Virus record (IMG/VR): IMGVR_UViG_3300036859_000195
Coordinates: 1 to 40,661 of that record
DNA: 40,661 nt
From: a virus
Direction: 5' to 3' (one strand)
The translations under genes were made by a program, and so were the position numbers. The notes below the pieces were generated by a model. It was not told the DNA's origin, ran no database searches, and saw nothing but the letters and a program-made list of their open reading frames with translations. Each line of letters starts with the position of its first letter. The stretch's first letter is position 1. This document shows, in pieces, positions 1,509-15,315 of this stretch.

Positions 1509-2309
1509 ATGACGACCGCCACCCGCGCCGCAAACCCACTGATCGAGATCTGGATGAATGTCGAGCGCGTTCTCGATGCGATGCCGGAGCACGAACGCCA
1601 GAAGCACTGGGACATGAGCCAGTGGGGCGCGAAAACCGATTGCGGCACCGTGGCGTGCGCGGCCGGTCACTGCGGCCTCGATCCGTGGTTCCGCGAGCGC
1701 AATTTCAAGCTCGACTTCAACAAGCGCGGCGAATCGAAGATCTCCGACGTGACAGCATTCTTCGGCTTCACGGGCGCACAGCGGATCTTCTTCAACTCCG
1801 ATAAGCGCCCGGTCGAAAAAGTCCTGGCCGAGGTGCGCGAGTACATCGACGAGCTGCGCAGGATCGATTCGCTCACCGCGGATCTGAATGTTCCGGCAAT
1901 CGGCTCCGAATGGCCCGAACAAGGCGGGCACTTCGCCGGTGCGATGTTGGGCGCCGATGGCGAGCCCGACTATCTCCTCATCGTCGGGCCGGAATGCGAT
2001 GGATATAGAACCTGGGATGGCGCGAAGGAGTGGGTCGCGTCGCAGGTTGTTGGCGGACACCACGACTTTGAGCTGCCAACTCGCCGCGAGAGCGCGGCGC
2101 TCTTCGAGCGGGTTCGCTCGCTGTTCCAGCGCTCGTGGTATTGGACCAGTGAGCAGCACGCTGTCTACGCCTACGGCGCCTGGGGCCAGCACTTCGGCGA
2201 CGGCGACCAGCTCAACTGGCTCAAGGACTACGGCTTCAGGGTGCGTGCTGTCCGCAGAGTTCCCATTCGCTCATTGGATCATTTGGTCATTTCCGGCGGT
2301 GCGTCGTGA
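1509..2309 (+). CDS. DGR variable protein 1 (C-type-lectin-like C-terminus with VR1)
   Basis: 266 aa, ATG preceded by GGAG. The N-terminal part (about 1-110) carries a Cys/His cluster (C45, C50, H54, C55) resembling a family of small phage proteins with a GTVAC-AGH signature. The C-terminal part (about 118-254) is lectin/DUF1566-like (DYLLIVGPE, then LPTRRE, then YWTSEQ) and is paralogous to the gene at 3901-4404. Its last part is VR1, which aligns to the template repeat with 18 of 19 differences at template adenines. No signal peptide or membrane segment is seen, and 12 residues follow the shared VPIR end. The next gene starts inside its stop (GTGA). The ligand is unknown; the target role is well supported, the binding role is inferred. 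Confidence 0.88.
   Translation: MTTATRAANPLIEIWMNVERVLDAMPEHERQKHWDMSQWGAKTDCGTVACAAGHCGLDPWFRERNFKLDFNKRGESKISDVTAFFGFTGAQRIFFNSDKRPVEKVLAEVREYIDELRRIDSLTADLNVPAIGSEWPEQGGHFAGAMLGADGEPDYLLIVGPECDGYRTWDGAKEWVASQVVGGHHDFELPTRRESAALFERVRSLFQRSWYWTSEQHAVYAYGAWGQHFGDGDQLNWLKDYGFRVRAVRRVPIRSLDHLVISGGAS
2153..2256 (+). repeat. DGR variable repeat VR1
   Basis: 104 bp aligning without gaps to the template at 4963-5066. I count 19 differences: 18 at template A (to T, G or C) and one T-to-G (2175 versus 4985). The last stretch, GGTGCGTGCTGTCCGCA, is identical to the template and is the expected initiation-of-mutagenic-homology end. After base 2256 VR1 and VR2 continue alike for 15 bases while the template diverges. 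Confidence 0.93.
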
Positions 2310-3157
2310 AGATCACGAGCCGCATGCCGCGCGCCGAATATGACGCCATCCAGGCGCTCAACATCTCGCGGCTGAAGGAGATCAAGCGCTCGCCGCAGCA
2401 CTTCCGCCACGCGATCGATCAGCCGAAGCTGTCGGCGCCGATGAACGTCGGCATTGCAACGCACGTCGCGGTGCTTGAGCCAGAACGCTACGTGAGCGAG
2501 TTCGCGGTGTGGACGCGCCGCACTTCCTCCGGCAACGCCGCTCCGCGCAATGGGCAGTGGTGGGATGCGTTCCACGCCGAGCATGCCGGCAAGCACATCC
2601 TCACCTACGATGAGAACGCGCTCGCCAATGCGATCGCCGCGGCGGTGCGCTTCGATGAGCGTGCGAATCGATACCTTGCAACGGGCGAGCCGGAGGTCAC
2701 GCTCGAGTGGAATCTCGACGCTGCGCTCGACGCCCGCCTCGCCAAGGGCCGTGTCGACTGGCTCACCAATATCGAGGGTGTGCCCTATCTCGTTGGCCTC
2801 AAGACCGCCCGCAACTGCGCGCACTACGCCTTTGGCAGCCAGGCCGCGGAGCTCGGCTATCACCTGCAGTGGGCGTACTACTTCGATGGCTTCAAAGCGA
2901 TACGTGGCAAGGCGCCGCGAATGGTCGAGATCGTCGTCGAGTCGAAGGCTCCGCACGCGGTCGCCGTCTACCGCATCGAGAACGATCTGATCGAACAGGG
3001 CCGCGAGGAGTACTGGGAGGCCGCGAAGATCCTCGCCGAATGCGAGGCACGCGATGAGTGGCCAGGCCCTGTGCCGACCGAAGAGGCGCTCACGCTTCCC
3101 TCCTGGGCGTACCACCAGGACGAGGACGTCAGCGAGATCGGTCTCGAGGCCGCCTAA
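2306..3157 (+). CDS. RecE/exonuclease VIII-like PD-(D/E)XK recombination nuclease
   Basis: 283 aa from a GTG at 2306 overlapping the previous stop. It resembles the phage exodeoxyribonuclease VIII/PDDEXK family: an early HFRHAI region, then G-x-ATHVAVLEPE, KGRVDWL (D151) and YLVGLKTA, with a Gln/Tyr helix (HLQWAYYFDG) after it. Such enzymes degrade one DNA strand to start phage recombination with a single-strand annealing or binding partner. Where the family normally has Asp before Leu-Lys (DLK), this protein has Gly (G164, L165, K166), so activity is in doubt. The OB-fold-like gene downstream is a probable partner. Family assignment is good; activity uncertain. Confidence 0.82.
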   Translation: MKITSRMPRAEYDAIQALNISRLKEIKRSPQHFRHAIDQPKLSAPMNVGIATHVAVLEPERYVSEFAVWTRRTSSGNAAPRNGQWWDAFHAEHAGKHILTYDENALANAIAAAVRFDERANRYLATGEPEVTLEWNLDAALDARLAKGRVDWLTNIEGVPYLVGLKTARNCAHYAFGSQAAELGYHLQWAYYFDGFKAIRGKAPRMVEIVVESKAPHAVAVYRIENDLIEQGREEYWEAAKILAECEARDEWPGPVPTEEALTLPSWAYHQDEDVSEIGLEAA

Positions 3158-3213
3158 ACATCTTTTCGCGCATCTGCATATTGCAACCGCGCACAACGCA
3201 AGGACTAACAATC

Positions 3214-3672
3214 ATGGCCGAATCAGCAAAAGTTTTCGCGAAGCCTGTCGATTGGGACGAGCTCTACCCAGGCCGCTTTCTTAAGGCCGGCGAGTTCAAG
3301 GGCAAGAAGCCGACGATGACGATCACCGCCGTGCAGCTCGATGAGCTCGAGGGCAACACCGGAAAAAAGGTGAAGGGCGTCATTTCCTTCGACCGCACGA
3401 CGAAGCAGCTCCCGCTCAACAAGACGAACGGCATCTGCCTGAAAGCGATGTTCGGGCGAAAGGTGCAGGACTGGGTGGGGCACAAGATCACGCTCTTCGC
3501 CGGCACCTGGAATGGCGAGGAGTGCATTCGCATCTGGGGCTCACCTGAGCTCACCGCCGATCAGGAGGTCGAGGTCGCCCTGCCCCGCAAGCGCCCTTTC
3601 AACATGACGATGCATAAGGTCGTCCAGCCGACCGCCGTGCAGACCAACAACGATCAATCCACTGAGGAATAG
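3214..3672 (+). CDS. OB-fold-like phage DNA metabolism protein next to the nuclease
   Basis: 152 aa from the ATG at 3214, preceded by an AAGGA ribosome site; a longer frame exists upstream but overlaps the nuclease gene. The pattern LPLNKTNGICLKAMFG followed by DWVGHKITLF and CIRIWGSPE matches a conserved small phage family found in recombination and replication clusters and thought to have an OB-like fold. The tail is Thr/Gln/Asn rich and acidic. It probably binds DNA or assists the neighbouring nuclease, but no biochemical role is proven by the sequence. Confidence 0.72.
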   Translation: MAESAKVFAKPVDWDELYPGRFLKAGEFKGKKPTMTITAVQLDELEGNTGKKVKGVISFDRTTKQLPLNKTNGICLKAMFGRKVQDWVGHKITLFAGTWNGEECIRIWGSPELTADQEVEVALPRKRPFNMTMHKVVQPTAVQTNNDQSTEE

Positions 3673-3675
3673 ACG

Positions 3676-3876
3676 ATGGCGAACAACACAAGAATCTATG
3701 TCGTGCGCGGCCCTAACAAGGCCGTCGCACTCGTCAAGGCGTCAAGCCAGGCGCAGGCCGTGGGGCATGTCGTGCGCAACGCCTACGAGGCGGAGGTTGC
3801 CGAGCAGGACATCCTGGTCGAGCTCGCCTCCGCCGGCGTCAAGGTCGAGCTCGCGGGCGTCGAAGCTGCCGCCTAA
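3676..3876 (+). CDS. Small hypothetical protein of the recombination/DGR cluster
   Basis: 66 aa, ATG three bases after the previous stop, with GAGGAA upstream. It has a beta strand-like start (TRIYVVRGPNKAVALVKASS) and an alternating strand/helix pattern, a compact alpha/beta domain that I cannot name. It sits between the OB-like protein and variable protein 2 in one operon. Confidence 0.6.
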   Translation: MANNTRIYVVRGPNKAVALVKASSQAQAVGHVVRNAYEAEVAEQDILVELASAGVKVELAGVEAAA

Positions 3877-3900
3877 CCACCACTTCACCAGGGCGTCACC

Positions 3901-4404
3901 ATGGAATTCAAGCGTAACGGCATTTCCGTCACTGTCTCCGAACAGGTCATCGCTCGACTCATCGTCGAGCGACTGCTGGCTGAAGACCGGGTAGCGGATC
4001 CCATCCCGTCGAGCATTCCCCGTATCGGCACCGACGATTCGCTTTTGGGCGGCGTCGTCGCCGGCGTCATGCGCGGCCGCCCTGGGACTTTCGATGGCGG
4101 GGACTACTTGCTCATCGCAGGTCCCGAGCACGATGGTGCGATCGCCTGGCAGCCGGCAACGGAGTGGGCTGAGAAGCTTCATCTGCACGGGCACACCGAC
4201 TGGAGCCTGCCGTACCGCAAGGAGCAGGCGCTCCTCTTCGCCAACGTACCGGAGCTCTTCAAGTCCGAGTACTACTGGTCTTGCGAGCAGCACGCTGACT
4301 TCGCCGGCTACGCCTGGAGCCAGTTCTTCGACGACGGCCAGGGCTACTGGCGCAAGGGCTTCAGCAGCAGGGTGCGTGCTGTCCGCAGAGTTCCCATTCG
4401 CTAA
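3901..4404 (+). CDS. DGR variable protein 2 (short lectin-like target with VR2)
   Basis: 167 aa. Residues about 48-167 are paralogous to the C-terminal domain of variable protein 1 (GGDYLLIAGPE, WSLPYRKEQ, YYWSCEQHA, RVRAVRRVPIR). It lacks the Cys/His N-terminal domain of its paralog and starts instead with a short helical segment. Its 3' end is VR2, which differs from the template at 17 adenines and lacks one AAC triplet. No signal peptide is seen, and the protein ends right after the conserved VPIR. It lies directly upstream of avd, template and RT, the usual target-avd-TR-RT order. What the variable face binds is unknown. Confidence 0.9.
   Translation: MEFKRNGISVTVSEQVIARLIVERLLAEDRVADPIPSSIPRIGTDDSLLGGVVAGVMRGRPGTFDGGDYLLIAGPEHDGAIAWQPATEWAEKLHLHGHTDWSLPYRKEQALLFANVPELFKSEYYWSCEQHADFAGYAWSQFFDDGQGYWRKGFSSRVRAVRRVPIR
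4287..4387 (+). repeat. DGR variable repeat VR2
   Basis: 101 bp aligning to the template at 4963-5066 with all 17 substitutions at template adenines and one 3-nt gap opposite the AAC at 5015-5017. It ends in the same GGTGCGTGCTGTCCGCA as the template and VR1, then shares GAGTTCCCATTCGCT with VR1 but not with the template. Confidence 0.93.
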
Positions 4405-4437
4405 TTCATTGATTCATTAATTTAGTTTTTACTCAGC

Positions 4438-4770
4438 ATGGCCTTCCACACCAAACTACCGATCTACAAGGTTGCCTACGACCTGTTGTCGGTCGCCACC
4501 GATTTCACGGTGAACTTCCCACGCCCGGTCCGCCGCATTGGCGATCGTGTGCGGGATCTGTGCATCAGCACCGTGATTCTAATTGCCAAGGCGAATGCGG
4601 CTGCCGACAAGCAGCCCCATCTGTCCGAGCTGCTCGATCTCAATCGCGAGCTCGAGCTGCTTCTGCGTCTCTGCGTCGACAAGAGGTTCATCAGCAAGCC
4701 GCAGTACGCGCGCGCTGTTGAGCTCACGCAGAGCGTCGGAAAGCAGGCAAATGGATGGAGGGGCAAATGA
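4438..4770 (+). CDS. avd: DGR accessory variability determinant (Avd), four-helix bundle
   Basis: 110 aa, the usual size for Avd. The start KLPIYKVAYDLLSVATDFTVNFPR, then RRIGDRVRDLCISTVILIAKAN and LLDLNRELELLLRLCVDKRFISKPQY match the four-helix-bundle family (Avd, related to the 23S rRNA intervening-sequence protein) that forms a pentameric barrel and binds RT and template RNA for mutagenic cDNA synthesis. It is basic, as expected for nucleic-acid binding. It lies between the VR2 target and the template repeat, and its stop overlaps an ATG (ATGA at 4767) of the long frame leading into RT. Confidence 0.9.
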   Translation: MAFHTKLPIYKVAYDLLSVATDFTVNFPRPVRRIGDRVRDLCISTVILIAKANAAADKQPHLSELLDLNRELELLLRLCVDKRFISKPQYARAVELTQSVGKQANGWRGK

Positions 4771-4962
4771 CTTCTCGCCCGCTGCCCGATCGTCAAGGCG
4801 ATCAGGCCTGTGCGATTGATCTGGTCGCGCCGCTGGCTTCGGCCACCGAGAAGCGCCACATGGATGACACCGGCGATCTCACGCGCCGGGGCGGATCCGG
4901 CGCAGTTTCCTCACTGATCGGCGAAAGCCTTCGATGGGGCGACGTGGAGAGTGCGATACATC

Positions 4963-5066
4963 GCAGCACGCTGACAACGCCAACTACGCCTGGAACCAGA
5001 ACTTCGACAACGGCAACCAGAACAACTGGCACAAGGACAACAACAACAGGGTGCGTGCTGTCCGCA
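4963..5066 (+). repeat. DGR template repeat (TR)
   Basis: 104 bp, A-rich at informative codon positions: in the VR frame it is mainly AAC codons (Asn), plus GAC, CAC and CAG, spaced by invariant TGG, TTC and GGC. Every VR1 and VR2 substitution except one falls on an adenine of this copy, the signature of adenine-specific mutagenic retrohoming. It lies between avd and the conserved RT domain. The region 4771-4962 upstream is presumably part of the template RNA. Confidence 0.94.
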
Positions 5067-6287
5067 AATCAATCTGGCGACCATGCTGAGCTTTCTTTCG
5101 CGGATCTCGTCCAGGCCTACTTCGACTGCCGCGAGCACAAGCGGAACACGCGCTCGGCGCTGCACTTCGAGGAGGAGCTCGAGCGCAACCTGGTCGCGCT
5201 GTATAGCGAGCTCGTCGCCGGCGACTACAAGATCGGGCCGTCGACCTGCTTCGTCATCACGAGGCCGAAGCCTCGCGAGGTGTGGGCCGCTAACTTTCGC
5301 GATCGCATCGTCCATCACCTGCTCTACAACCGTGTCGCAGCTCGCTTCTACGCGAATTTCACCAACGACTCGTGCGCGTGCATCCCCGGCCGCGGCACCC
5401 TCTTCGCTGCCAGGCGCCTCGAGGCGAAAGTCCGCAGCGTCACGCAGAACTGGTCTCGCCGGGCGTTCTACCTCAAGTGCGACATTGCCAACTTCTTCGT
5501 GTCGATCGAGAAATCGCGTCTGGCTGAGCTTCTCGACGAACGCATCATCGAGCCATGGTGGCGCGCGCTCGCCCACCAGGTGCTCTTCCATGATCCGCGG
5601 GTCAATGTGTTCGTGCAGGGAGATCCAAAACGCCTCGCACTAATCCCGAGGCACAAGAGTCTATTCAACCAGGACGCAGCGCACGGCCTGCCGATCGGGA
5701 ATCTGTCCTCGCAGTTCTTCGCGAATATCTACATGAACGTGCTCGATCAGCACGTGAAGCACGTTGTCGGCGCGCGTCACTACGTTCGATACGTCGATGA
5801 CTTCGTGCTGCTCCACGATTCGCCCCAGTGGCTGAACGCGGCCAAACGCGAGATTGAAGCCGTTCTCGCGGATCGACTGGACTTGCGCCTCAATCCCAAG
5901 AAGACCGTTCTGCAGCCCATTGCGCGCGGCATCGACTTCGCCGGCCAGGTGTTGAAGCCCTGGCGCCGCACGATCCGTCGGCGTGTCGTGAATGATGCGA
6001 TCGCGCGCACCGTCGCGGCCGCGGATCTGCACACGACCGCGAACAGCTATTTCGGCCTCTTTCGCCAGGCAACGCATTCACATGGCGATCGACGGCGTCT
6101 CGCACGGGTCGCGCTTCGCCGCGGTCACGTAGTTGATCTCAAGCTCAATAGGATTTTCCGACAACAACAGATGAGGTTCCCATGTCCATCGCAAGAACAG
6201 CAAAACCCTGGCGCCCTTCGGAGGTCTCGCGCCTCCGTAAGCTTGCCGCCGCCGGCAAGTCCGCGCGTGAGGCGTCGAAGATTCTGA
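5055..6287 (+). CDS. DGR reverse transcriptase
   Basis: About 410 aa if begun at the in-frame GTG at 5055. Conserved blocks: a start like other DGR RTs (FADLVQAYFDCREHKRNT), the metal-binding KCDIANFF (D at about 143), the DGR-type IGNLSSQFFANIYMN and the catalytic YVDD (246-249). It copies template RNA into adenine-mutated cDNA together with Avd. The frame is open back to ATG 4767, which overlaps the avd stop, so a coupled start with the template inside the coding sequence is possible; the Thr-rich translation of the template makes me prefer a start near 5055. The C-terminal ~45 residues overlap the next gene and look non-conserved. RT identity is firm; the start is not. Confidence 0.92.
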   Translation: MLSANQSGDHAELSFADLVQAYFDCREHKRNTRSALHFEEELERNLVALYSELVAGDYKIGPSTCFVITRPKPREVWAANFRDRIVHHLLYNRVAARFYANFTNDSCACIPGRGTLFAARRLEAKVRSVTQNWSRRAFYLKCDIANFFVSIEKSRLAELLDERIIEPWWRALAHQVLFHDPRVNVFVQGDPKRLALIPRHKSLFNQDAAHGLPIGNLSSQFFANIYMNVLDQHVKHVVGARHYVRYVDDFVLLHDSPQWLNAAKREIEAVLADRLDLRLNPKKTVLQPIARGIDFAGQVLKPWRRTIRRRVVNDAIARTVAAADLHTTANSYFGLFRQATHSHGDRRRLARVALRRGHVVDLKLNRIFRQQQMRFPCPSQEQQNPGALRRSRASVSLPPPASPRVRRRRF

Positions 6288-6430
6288 AGCGTCCACATCC
6301 CGGCCTTCGCTACAAGGCGATGGTCGAGGGCATCAAATTCTTCTCGACGCCGCAGCCTGCCGGTGTGCAGAAGCGCCTCGCGCGCCGGCGCCGCAAGTTC
6401 GGCATGCGGGCGACGCTGCGTGCTGCCTGA
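6182..6430 (+). CDS. Small basic HTH/Myb-like protein at the end of the DGR cassette
   Basis: 82 aa, ATG preceded by GAGG at 8 bases, overlapping the RT 3' end by 106 bp in another frame. Residues about 8-45 (WRPSEVSRLRKLAAAGKSAREASKIL) look like a helix-turn-helix or Myb-like fold of the kind that counts Trp-led helices; the C-terminus is very basic (RRRRKFGMR). It is the last gene before a terminator, so it is co-transcribed with RT. It may be a DNA- or RNA-binding DGR accessory or an unrelated phage regulator. Confidence 0.62.
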   Translation: MSIARTAKPWRPSEVSRLRKLAAAGKSAREASKILKRPHPGLRYKAMVEGIKFFSTPQPAGVQKRLARRRRKFGMRATLRAA

Positions 6431-6473
6431 TGTTCACCGTCTGCAACGCGAGACCTCCCACTCGGCGTGCAGG

Positions 6474-6507
6474 GCGCGGCGGCTGTGACAGCGGTCGCCG
6501 CGTTTTT
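6474..6507 (+). terminator. Rho-independent terminator after the DGR cassette
   Basis: Stem GCGGCG (6476-6481) pairs with CGCCGC (6496-6501), followed by GTTTTT. It closes the transcript carrying the DGR genes and separates it from the next small-gene group. Confidence 0.72.
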
Positions 6508-13829: not shown

Positions 13830-14136
13830 CTCGAAGGTTTCTCCCTTCCAGCGTGTAGACCCGTCTATCCACCGCGTTGATGTGATCTTCCTGTCGTTCG
13901 TTGAGCGCCCGAATCTCTACGAGCTGCCTGTCGAACTCTTGCTTGCTGACCGCATAGGCTGCGAGGGTCAGATTGATCTGGTAGAGGTTATTGGCTGCAA
14001 CCCATGTACCGGTGACTATGGCCATGCCGATGGAGCCGTAGCACCAGGCGAGCACCTTGGATACGCGGCCATCGCGGAGGCTGATGCGTGCGCCGCCGTG
14101 CTCTCCACCCGCGTCTGCGTGGTCCGTTGGTGTCAT
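13801..14136 (-). CDS. Membrane-anchored coiled-coil protein
   Basis: 111 aa with one span at about 28-48 (VLAWCYGSIGMAIVTGTWVAA) and a heptad-rich helix (about 60-100: EFDRQLVEIRALNERQEDHINAVDRRV). Starts 15 bp from the divergent acyltransferase gene on the other strand, so the short gap must hold regulatory signals for one or both. Function unknown. Confidence 0.6.
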   Translation of the reverse strand: MTPTDHADAGGEHGGARISLRDGRVSKVLAWCYGSIGMAIVTGTWVAANNLYQINLTLAAYAVSKQEFDRQLVEIRALNERQEDHINAVDRRVYTLEGRNLRGGPDAPATR

Positions 14137-14151
14137 GTACTATCTCGGGAC

Positions 14152-15315
14152 ATGAAAATCATAGCGGCGCTCTCCCGCGTCACGACGAGCGGGCTGGTTC
14201 TGATGGAGGTCGATGGCCTGCGGTTTCTGGCTATCGCGAGCGTGGTGCTGTACCACTTGAAGGGCTACGTGCTGGTGAAATCGCCGGCGGCCAACCCAGA
14301 ATGGCAGTCGAGCCTGTTGGTGTCGGCGCTCGATCGAGGCTGGTTCGGCGTGATCCTGTTCTTCGCGATCAGTGGCTTCATCATTTCGCTGCCGTTCGCC
14401 TCTCACTACTTGGGAGGCGCGAAACCAGTCTCGCTGAAAAGCTACTACCTGCGCCGGGTGACGCGATTGGAGCCGCCCTACTTCATCTGCATCACGGTGC
14501 TGTTTCTGCTGCATCTGGCCCGTGGAGACACCGGACTGCTGCCGCATTACTTCTCGACGCTCACCTACTCGCACAATCTGTTGTTCGGCGAGAAGAGCAC
14601 CATTGCACCGGTGGCCTGGTCGCTTGAGATCGAGATTCAGTTCTACCTGCTCGCGCCCATAGTTGCGCGAACCTTCGCCATCGATGGAAAGCTCGAACGG
14701 CGCACGCTGCTGGTCGTCCTGATCCTGGTGGGATGCGCTGTGCAGCCGCTCATGAACAATTGGCGGCTGAATGTGCTGATGTTCGCGCAGTGCTTTCTGG
14801 TCGGCTTTCTGATGGCCGACATCTACGTGAGCGAGTGGAAGAGCTCGCCAGCGAAGGCCTGGCGATGGGACGCGCTCGCACTTGCTGCTGGCGCGCTGCT
14901 CTTCGCGCTGACGGGCAGCATCACGCGCGTGTGGTGGAGTCCACCGACGCACAGCGCTGATCAGTGGGTAGACCCAGTATGGTGCGCACTCGCCTGCCTC
15001 GGGCTGCTGGCGCTCTTCGCCGCGGCGTTTCGTGGAAGGGTGACGAATGCCTTCCTGTCTATTCCCTACGTCTCGGTGATCGGCGGCATGTGCTACACGA
15101 TATACCTGTATCACGAGCACGTCTTCTCGTTCGTGGGCAGGCTCGCGATGCGCGCGCACTTCACTGAAACCTTCGCCGGCAATTACCTGCTTGGGATCGC
15201 GTTGATGGTGCCGTTCACGCTGGCTGTGACGAGCGCGCTCTTCGTGGCGTTCGAGAAGCCGTTCATGCGGCGCGTGTGGGCAGCGCGGCTCACGATACAT
15301 ACGCAGACCCGCTGA
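14152..15315 (+). CDS. Acyltransferase 3 family protein (O-antigen/polysaccharide O-acetylase-like)
   Basis: 387 aa, ATG at 14152. About ten hydrophobic segments and the family start (DGLRFLAIASVVLYHLKGY, His at about 35) mark the OafA/YrhL-type acyltransferase 3 family, which moves acetyl groups across the inner membrane to surface polysaccharides. It is the only large plus-strand gene inside the minus-strand late region and sits beside the tail spike genes, the usual place for serotype-converting genes. Its end overlaps the tail spike gene by 26 bp. Substrate not deducible. Confidence 0.88.
   Translation: MKIIAALSRVTTSGLVLMEVDGLRFLAIASVVLYHLKGYVLVKSPAANPEWQSSLLVSALDRGWFGVILFFAISGFIISLPFASHYLGGAKPVSLKSYYLRRVTRLEPPYFICITVLFLLHLARGDTGLLPHYFSTLTYSHNLLFGEKSTIAPVAWSLEIEIQFYLLAPIVARTFAIDGKLERRTLLVVLILVGCAVQPLMNNWRLNVLMFAQCFLVGFLMADIYVSEWKSSPAKAWRWDALALAAGALLFALTGSITRVWWSPPTHSADQWVDPVWCALACLGLLALFAAAFRGRVTNAFLSIPYVSVIGGMCYTIYLYHEHVFSFVGRLAMRAHFTETFAGNYLLGIALMVPFTLAVTSALFVAFEKPFMRRVWAARLTIHTQTR

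Follow-up and report, generated by a model that had tools for sequence, protein, structure and literature searches.

The cassette at 1.5-6.5 kb of the window (the whole stretch of DNA analysed here, an entire IMG/VR virus record of 40,661 bp) is best explained as a two-target diversity-generating retroelement (DGR) working by mutagenic retrohoming, a reading in which we have very high confidence. As a DGR it is an ordinary-looking system of a known kind. What our analysis adds is the assignment of a structured RNA, RT-15, to the template transcript, and a proposed nesting of the template repeat (TR) in the reading frame of the reverse transcriptase (RT). The cassette lies on the + strand in the order target gene 1, exonuclease VIII and small genes, target gene 2, avd, structured RNA, TR, RT and terminator (Table 1). 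Judging by phrog matches to tyrosine integrase, exonuclease VIII, helicase/primase, terminase, portal, major head, head-closure and DNA-ejection proteins, the window is a temperate phage. Outside the cassette it also holds an O-acetyltransferase/O-antigen acetylase gene (13882-15315), of a type typical of lysogenic conversion and on the opposite strand to the structural genes.

Table 1. Positions of the cassette's features in the window.
Feature	Position	Strand	Remarks
Target gene 1 (266 aa)	1509..2309	+	N-terminal domain (about aa 1-120) unrelated; C-terminal Lcl_C/C-type-lectin domain ending in VR1
VR1	2153..2256	+	18/19 differences at TR adenines
Inverted repeat, 6 bp (TCGTGA-AGA-TCACGA)	2304..2318	+	About 45 nt 3' of VR1
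Target gene 2 (167 aa)	3901..4404	+	Lcl_C/C-type-lectin protein ending in VR2
VR2	4287..4387	+	17/17 substitutions at TR adenines; 3-nt deletion relative to TR
avd (accessory variability determinant), 110 aa	4438..4770	+	PF22296, phrog_3206
RT-15 structured RNA (RF03018)	4773..4963	+	Rfam match; putative 5' domain of DGR template RNA
TR (template repeat)	4963..5066	+	35 adenines in 104 nt
RT reading frame	4767..6287	+	Homology core 5085-6180; start codon putative
Intrinsic terminator	6471..6507	+	16-bp hairpin (about 6471-6506) + T5

An earlier note on this DNA had described a complete DGR whose single TR serves two adenine-diversified targets, and the adenine bias, Avd, RT and terminator all bear this out. 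Across the 104 aligned bases of TR and VR1, every difference but one falls at a TR adenine (hypergeometric p = 1.1e-9), the exception being T4985, which is G in VR1. For VR2 the claim that all substitutions lie at adenines stands (p = 1.5e-10), but the note had missed a 3-nt gap, equal to one codon, at about 5014-5016 of the TR. Apart from these two changes the non-adenine bases of the TR are the same in both VRs, and the 3' end, GTGCGTGCTGTCCGCA, is invariant and common to all three repeats. The codon missing from VR2 points to a 3-nt deletion that was either tolerated or produced by homing. No third VR turned up when the TR was compared with the whole window on both strands. A hairpin or cruciform downstream of the VR is needed in BPP-1 (PMC3240598), and the inverted repeat that follows VR1 is a candidate for such a structure, with no comparable clear one after VR2. 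Among relatives of the cassette, GC-rich stems of at least 7 bp follow 47 of 295 VRs, as against 3 of 295 shuffled sequences and 10 of 153 TRs, a distribution in line with the BPP-1 hairpin.

The avd product matches PF22296 (bAvd) above its cut-off and phrog_3206 ('Avd protein of DGR', 2e-25), while the RT matches PF00078 and phrog_1423 (4.5e-105) and carries the DGR-type motifs IGNLSSQ and YVDD, which conform to [IL]GN..SQ and YxDD. The window has TR/VR adenine bias, an RT of DGR lineage, Avd, and a C-terminal VR in a target of C-type-lectin fold. The terminator has a folding energy of -26.8 kcal/mol; a simple terminator scan scored just a 5-bp part of its hairpin. A promoter scan gave no signal above chance. 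An ORF at 6182-6430 was considered as an accessory DGR component and rejected, as its homologue is absent from every related locus.

Searching with the RT and with an RT alignment yielded about 200 loci, and 173 loci were analysable in the clade (at least 55% identity). The same cassette is present in the isolated phages Magia and QDWS. With short flanks searched, two VRs were found in 120 of the 173 loci, three in 17, one in 28 and none in 8. At least 137 clade relatives therefore carry two or more VRs, and the earlier suggestion that two targets served by one template are less common does not hold within this clade, where they are the rule. Among DGRs at large, multi-VR systems made up about one seventh of those catalogued in DiGReF (2012, PMC3521204), which lists them for Burkholderia, Ralstonia and Pseudomonas; a later survey put the share of DGRs with several VRs at 28.6% (Yan 2019, PMC6642488). 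Summed over the 173 clade members, 3989 mismatches lie at TR adenines and 95 elsewhere, although the search scoring favours A mismatches and the window's own adenine test is the cleaner measure.

Near-identical contigs from relatives supplied, at the level of the family, the adenine-specific VR changes expected in populations. Between loci L047 and L048 the flanks differ at 6 of 2426 positions (0.2%) and the TR at 0 of 110, whereas the VR differs at 14 of 107 (13%), always at a TR adenine. L086 and L129, with 8.8% divergence in the flank, have no difference over 103 TR bases, and 30 of their 32 VR differences are at TR adenines. The TRs of L025 and L029 are identical in flanks about 9% different, with 14 of 16 VR differences at TR adenines, and L028 and L029 differ by about 2% in the flanks and by 21-22% in both VRs. 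Three further pairs (L003/L004, L009/L090 and L014/L015) were uninformative, being from the same contig or identical in sequence. These comparisons of natural sequences show a DGR family that is active in nature. As the window's phage is represented by one sequence only, its own activity is presumed by analogy with these relatives.

One subgroup presents a different picture of the template itself. In L028 and L030 the TR (5882-5968 in both) has lost adenines that the A-rich TR of the close relatives L025 and L029 retains; the 11 differences of the L028 TR from that of L029 fall at A positions. The pattern resembles self-homing, or conversion from VR to TR, and either would erode the template. 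A nearby ATG in this subgroup allows the RT to start after the TR.

Two explanations deny the window's phage a working DGR. In one of them, which we consider unlikely, the DGR has decayed and VR1 and VR2 are left over from diversification that has since ceased in this phage. Decay does occur in the clade, as the lost adenines of L028 and L030 indicate, and VR2 lacks both one codon and a clear downstream hairpin; yet all genes of the window's cassette are intact, the catalytic motifs are present, and TR and VRs are equal outside adenines but for one base and the 3-nt gap. Because VR1 and VR2 sit in different genes, such identity would need recent rewriting from the TR. The other explanation invokes ordinary paralogy or gene conversion, with two lectin genes and a pseudogene copy and without reverse transcription. 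The two targets are indeed paralogous across the lectin domain, but 35 of 36 substitutions fall at TR adenines, an intact RT and Avd lie beside the template, and the same pattern recurs in about 170 relatives. The adenine bias leads us to reject this explanation, whose probability we regard as negligible. Mutagenic retrohoming by a two-target DGR accounts best for the locus.

Both targets end in Lcl_C (DUF1566-type) domains. Target 2 scores 37.4 against PF07603, above the gathering cut-off of 34.9, and target 1, at 32.9, falls just under it while being 50% identical to target 2 across the domain. An AlphaFold model of target 2 (pLDDT 90.9) has as its best Foldseek match in the PDB the C-terminal domain of Legionella Lcl (8q4e), followed by C-type lectins. 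An alignment of 35 targets shows invariant scaffold residues with the hypervariable positions between them. Residues 1-120 of target 1 (window 1509-1870, motif ACAAGHCGLDPWF) match no other target in the DGR family; this N-terminal domain is a free-standing phage protein in L250 and L254, and adjoins a RecT-like gene in L250. By these matches, target 1 is a fusion of an unrelated early-protein domain and a variable lectin domain. The target genes are on the + strand among exonuclease and integrase genes, and the tail, head and portal genes are on the - strand at about 15-34 kb; the targets are thus located away from the window's tail genes, in contrast to an Mtd-like tail adhesin. They are probably non-tail proteins of the early or lysogenic region, which would make the diversified products of this cassette lectin-fold proteins of the early region and not tail fibres.

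The 191 nt between avd and the TR, in which the earlier note had overlooked any RNA, match the Rfam RT-15 RNA over the full length of the model (positions 1-192) with 149.3 bits against a gathering cut-off of 82. Of 25 relatives scanned with Rfam, 22 have RT-15 in the corresponding position; the match was absent in the other three (L035-L037), the most distant relatives scanned, at 47-49% RT identity. We also scanned 698 genomes of two taxa, together with 11 genomes known to hold the cassette, using the RNA model alone. Each of the 43 distinct matches above cut-off lay upstream of an RT of the window's clade, and at 42 of them a TR starts at the last bases of the RNA and at least one VR is present. 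Among 21 sequences, 28 of the 45 consensus pairs have double-sided changes. Given the shared position in most relatives scanned, the adjacency to the clade's RT at all genome matches, the TRs beginning at the RNA's end and the covarying pairs, we conclude from comparative sequence data that the DGR template RNA of this clade has RT-15 as its 5' domain. It probably recruits Avd-RT. An Rfam RNA named merely for its RT neighbour is in this way linked to a DGR template transcript. Our literature search, which lacked the founding description of RT-15 (NAR 2017) and a large DGR survey, found no papers tying RT-15 to DGRs, so the link may have been recognised before.

The RT frame of the window is open from before the avd stop as far as 6287. 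An ATG at 4767 overlaps that stop (GGAGGGGCAAATGA) and is preceded by GGAGGGGCAA. We favour 4767 or 4860 as the RT start, with GTG 5055 as a possible one; from any of the three, the RT frame takes in the TR wholly or in part. Of 153 non-redundant loci, 141 keep this frame open across the TR. Over the 102 nt before the TR the RT frame has 23 stops and the other two have 251 and 263, a depletion partly due to conserved RNA motifs, and between TR and RT there are none in the RT frame against 110 and 34. The distance from the TR 3' end to the RT keeps one phase in 142 of the 153 loci, over 12 distinct lengths. Counted in disjoint sister pairs, 31 of 34 length changes between TR and RT are multiples of three (p = 3e-12), as are 23 of 30 from the last RT-15 motif, at the RNA's 3' end, to mid-TR (p = 1.5e-6); within RT-15 the corresponding counts are 15/29 and 15/34 in the middle and 5/25 at the 5' end. 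The frame lock thus weakens upstream, a pattern that fits a start of translation within RT-15 or, for some lineages, one close to avd or in the TR itself.

After the TR, 79 of the 141 frame-open clade loci have a start codon and 62 have no ATG, GTG or TTG; ten frame-open loci have none of these codons either after or inside the TR. In DGRs of other clades, taken as a control, a start codon follows the TR in 12 of 12. Locus L022 keeps its frame through two compensating shifts around the TR. Pseudomonas loci (L139 and others) have an RT-frame TGA in the TR and, 9-12 nt later and still in the TR, an ATG or ATGATG, mostly with no start after the TR, an arrangement that suggests translation restart inside the template. 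In L020 (about 4843-5990) and at the corresponding place in L021, a gene that by eye is PAPS-reductase-like stands between TR and RT, and in L020 the upstream open frame passes through the TR into this gene and not into the RT.

It is possible, though we hold it to be improbable, that the DGR is real but its RT starts at GTG 5055, at the TR 3' end, or at another unusual start near there, the upstream open frame being an untranslated by-product of conserved RNA motifs and high G+C. An AGGG-like site precedes GTG 5055, some few loci do have an ATG after the TR, and in the Pseudomonas subgroup the RT may begin inside the TR. Amino-acid constraint on the frame upstream of the TR is also almost nil, with rates at the three codon positions of 0.221/0.227/0.253 against 0.17/0.14/0.47 in the RT, which favours a late start. 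These flat rates imply that the upstream protein sequence, if translated, hardly matters, and the case for nesting therefore rests on the reading frame and not on protein conservation. A late start sits poorly with the in-frame indels found both between the RT-15 3' end and mid-TR and between TR and RT, with the ten loci devoid of ATG, GTG and TTG in or after the TR, and with the two compensating shifts of L022. Taken together, the frame data strongly support an RT frame that extends into the TR, and in most relatives through it, so that the template RNA would also be the 5' part of the RT coding sequence. We think it somewhat more probable than not that in the RT-15 clade the RT coding sequence contains both the template and the structured 5' domain of the template RNA, such that ribosomes must read through the TR, the same RNA is both mRNA and mutagenic template, and RT-15 is the recruitment domain. 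Overlap of TR and RT is not in itself new, since the DiGReF account of structural groups (PMC3521204) includes a class, group 3, whose TR overlaps the RT ORF at its end; our addition is the evidence of constraint.

In the mechanism that best explains the cassette, a transcript would carry avd, the RT-15 structured RNA, TR and RT. The Avd-RT complex would recognise the structured RNA beside the TR, and the TR would be copied into cDNA with misincorporation opposite adenines. This cDNA would then replace VR1 and VR2, whose 3' end GTGCGTGCTGTCCGCA is that of the TR, and in this way rewrite the ligand face of both lectin-fold targets. With one RNA serving as message and as template, the two uses would compete, or else be coupled in cis. 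If true, nesting could result in cis-preference or let the RNA switch between being translated and being reverse-transcribed. It also has a bearing on the recognition and priming of DGR RNAs and on what keeps them from translation during copying.

Among known systems, the window's DGR resembles that of Bordetella phage BPP-1 (mtd-avd-TR-brt) in its order of target, avd, TR and RT, its A-specific TR/VR differences, its DGR-type RT and its C-terminal VR in a protein of C-type-lectin fold. It differs from BPP-1 in having an RT just 32% identical to Brt, two targets of Lcl_C/DUF1566 type located apart from the tail genes, an RT-15 RNA preceding the TR, and a TR that overlaps the RT reading frame. 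The BPP-1 system has been reconstituted in E. coli (PMC12875486). Closer are the DGRs of Burkholderia phage Magia (NC_070954) and Shewanella phage QDWS (OK094664), which belong to the same clade (RT 63% identical) and share lectin targets, Avd and a position in the early/integrase region. Two lectin genes of Magia had already been flagged by annotators as possible DGR targets. Unlike the window, Magia has three A-diversified VRs, and unlike both phages the window has a target 1 that is fused to an unrelated early-protein domain; this target is also farther from the TR than are the QDWS targets. The QDWS (L038, 1571-4132) and Magia (L039, 8498-11058) cassettes are 88% identical in DNA, which suggests a recent transfer. 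The records of QDWS and 'Hujiaoplasma phage zrk29-1' have equal length and the same RT match, and one host label may be wrong. With the multi-VR DGRs of DiGReF (PMC3521204) the window shares the possession of two or more VRs. Whereas the overlap in DiGReF structural group 3 is an arrangement class, frame preservation across about 150 loci here indicates a constrained coding overlap, and RT-15 (RF03018), a family whose name points to reverse transcriptases and which the window matches end to end at 149 bits, is here tied to the TR of a DGR.
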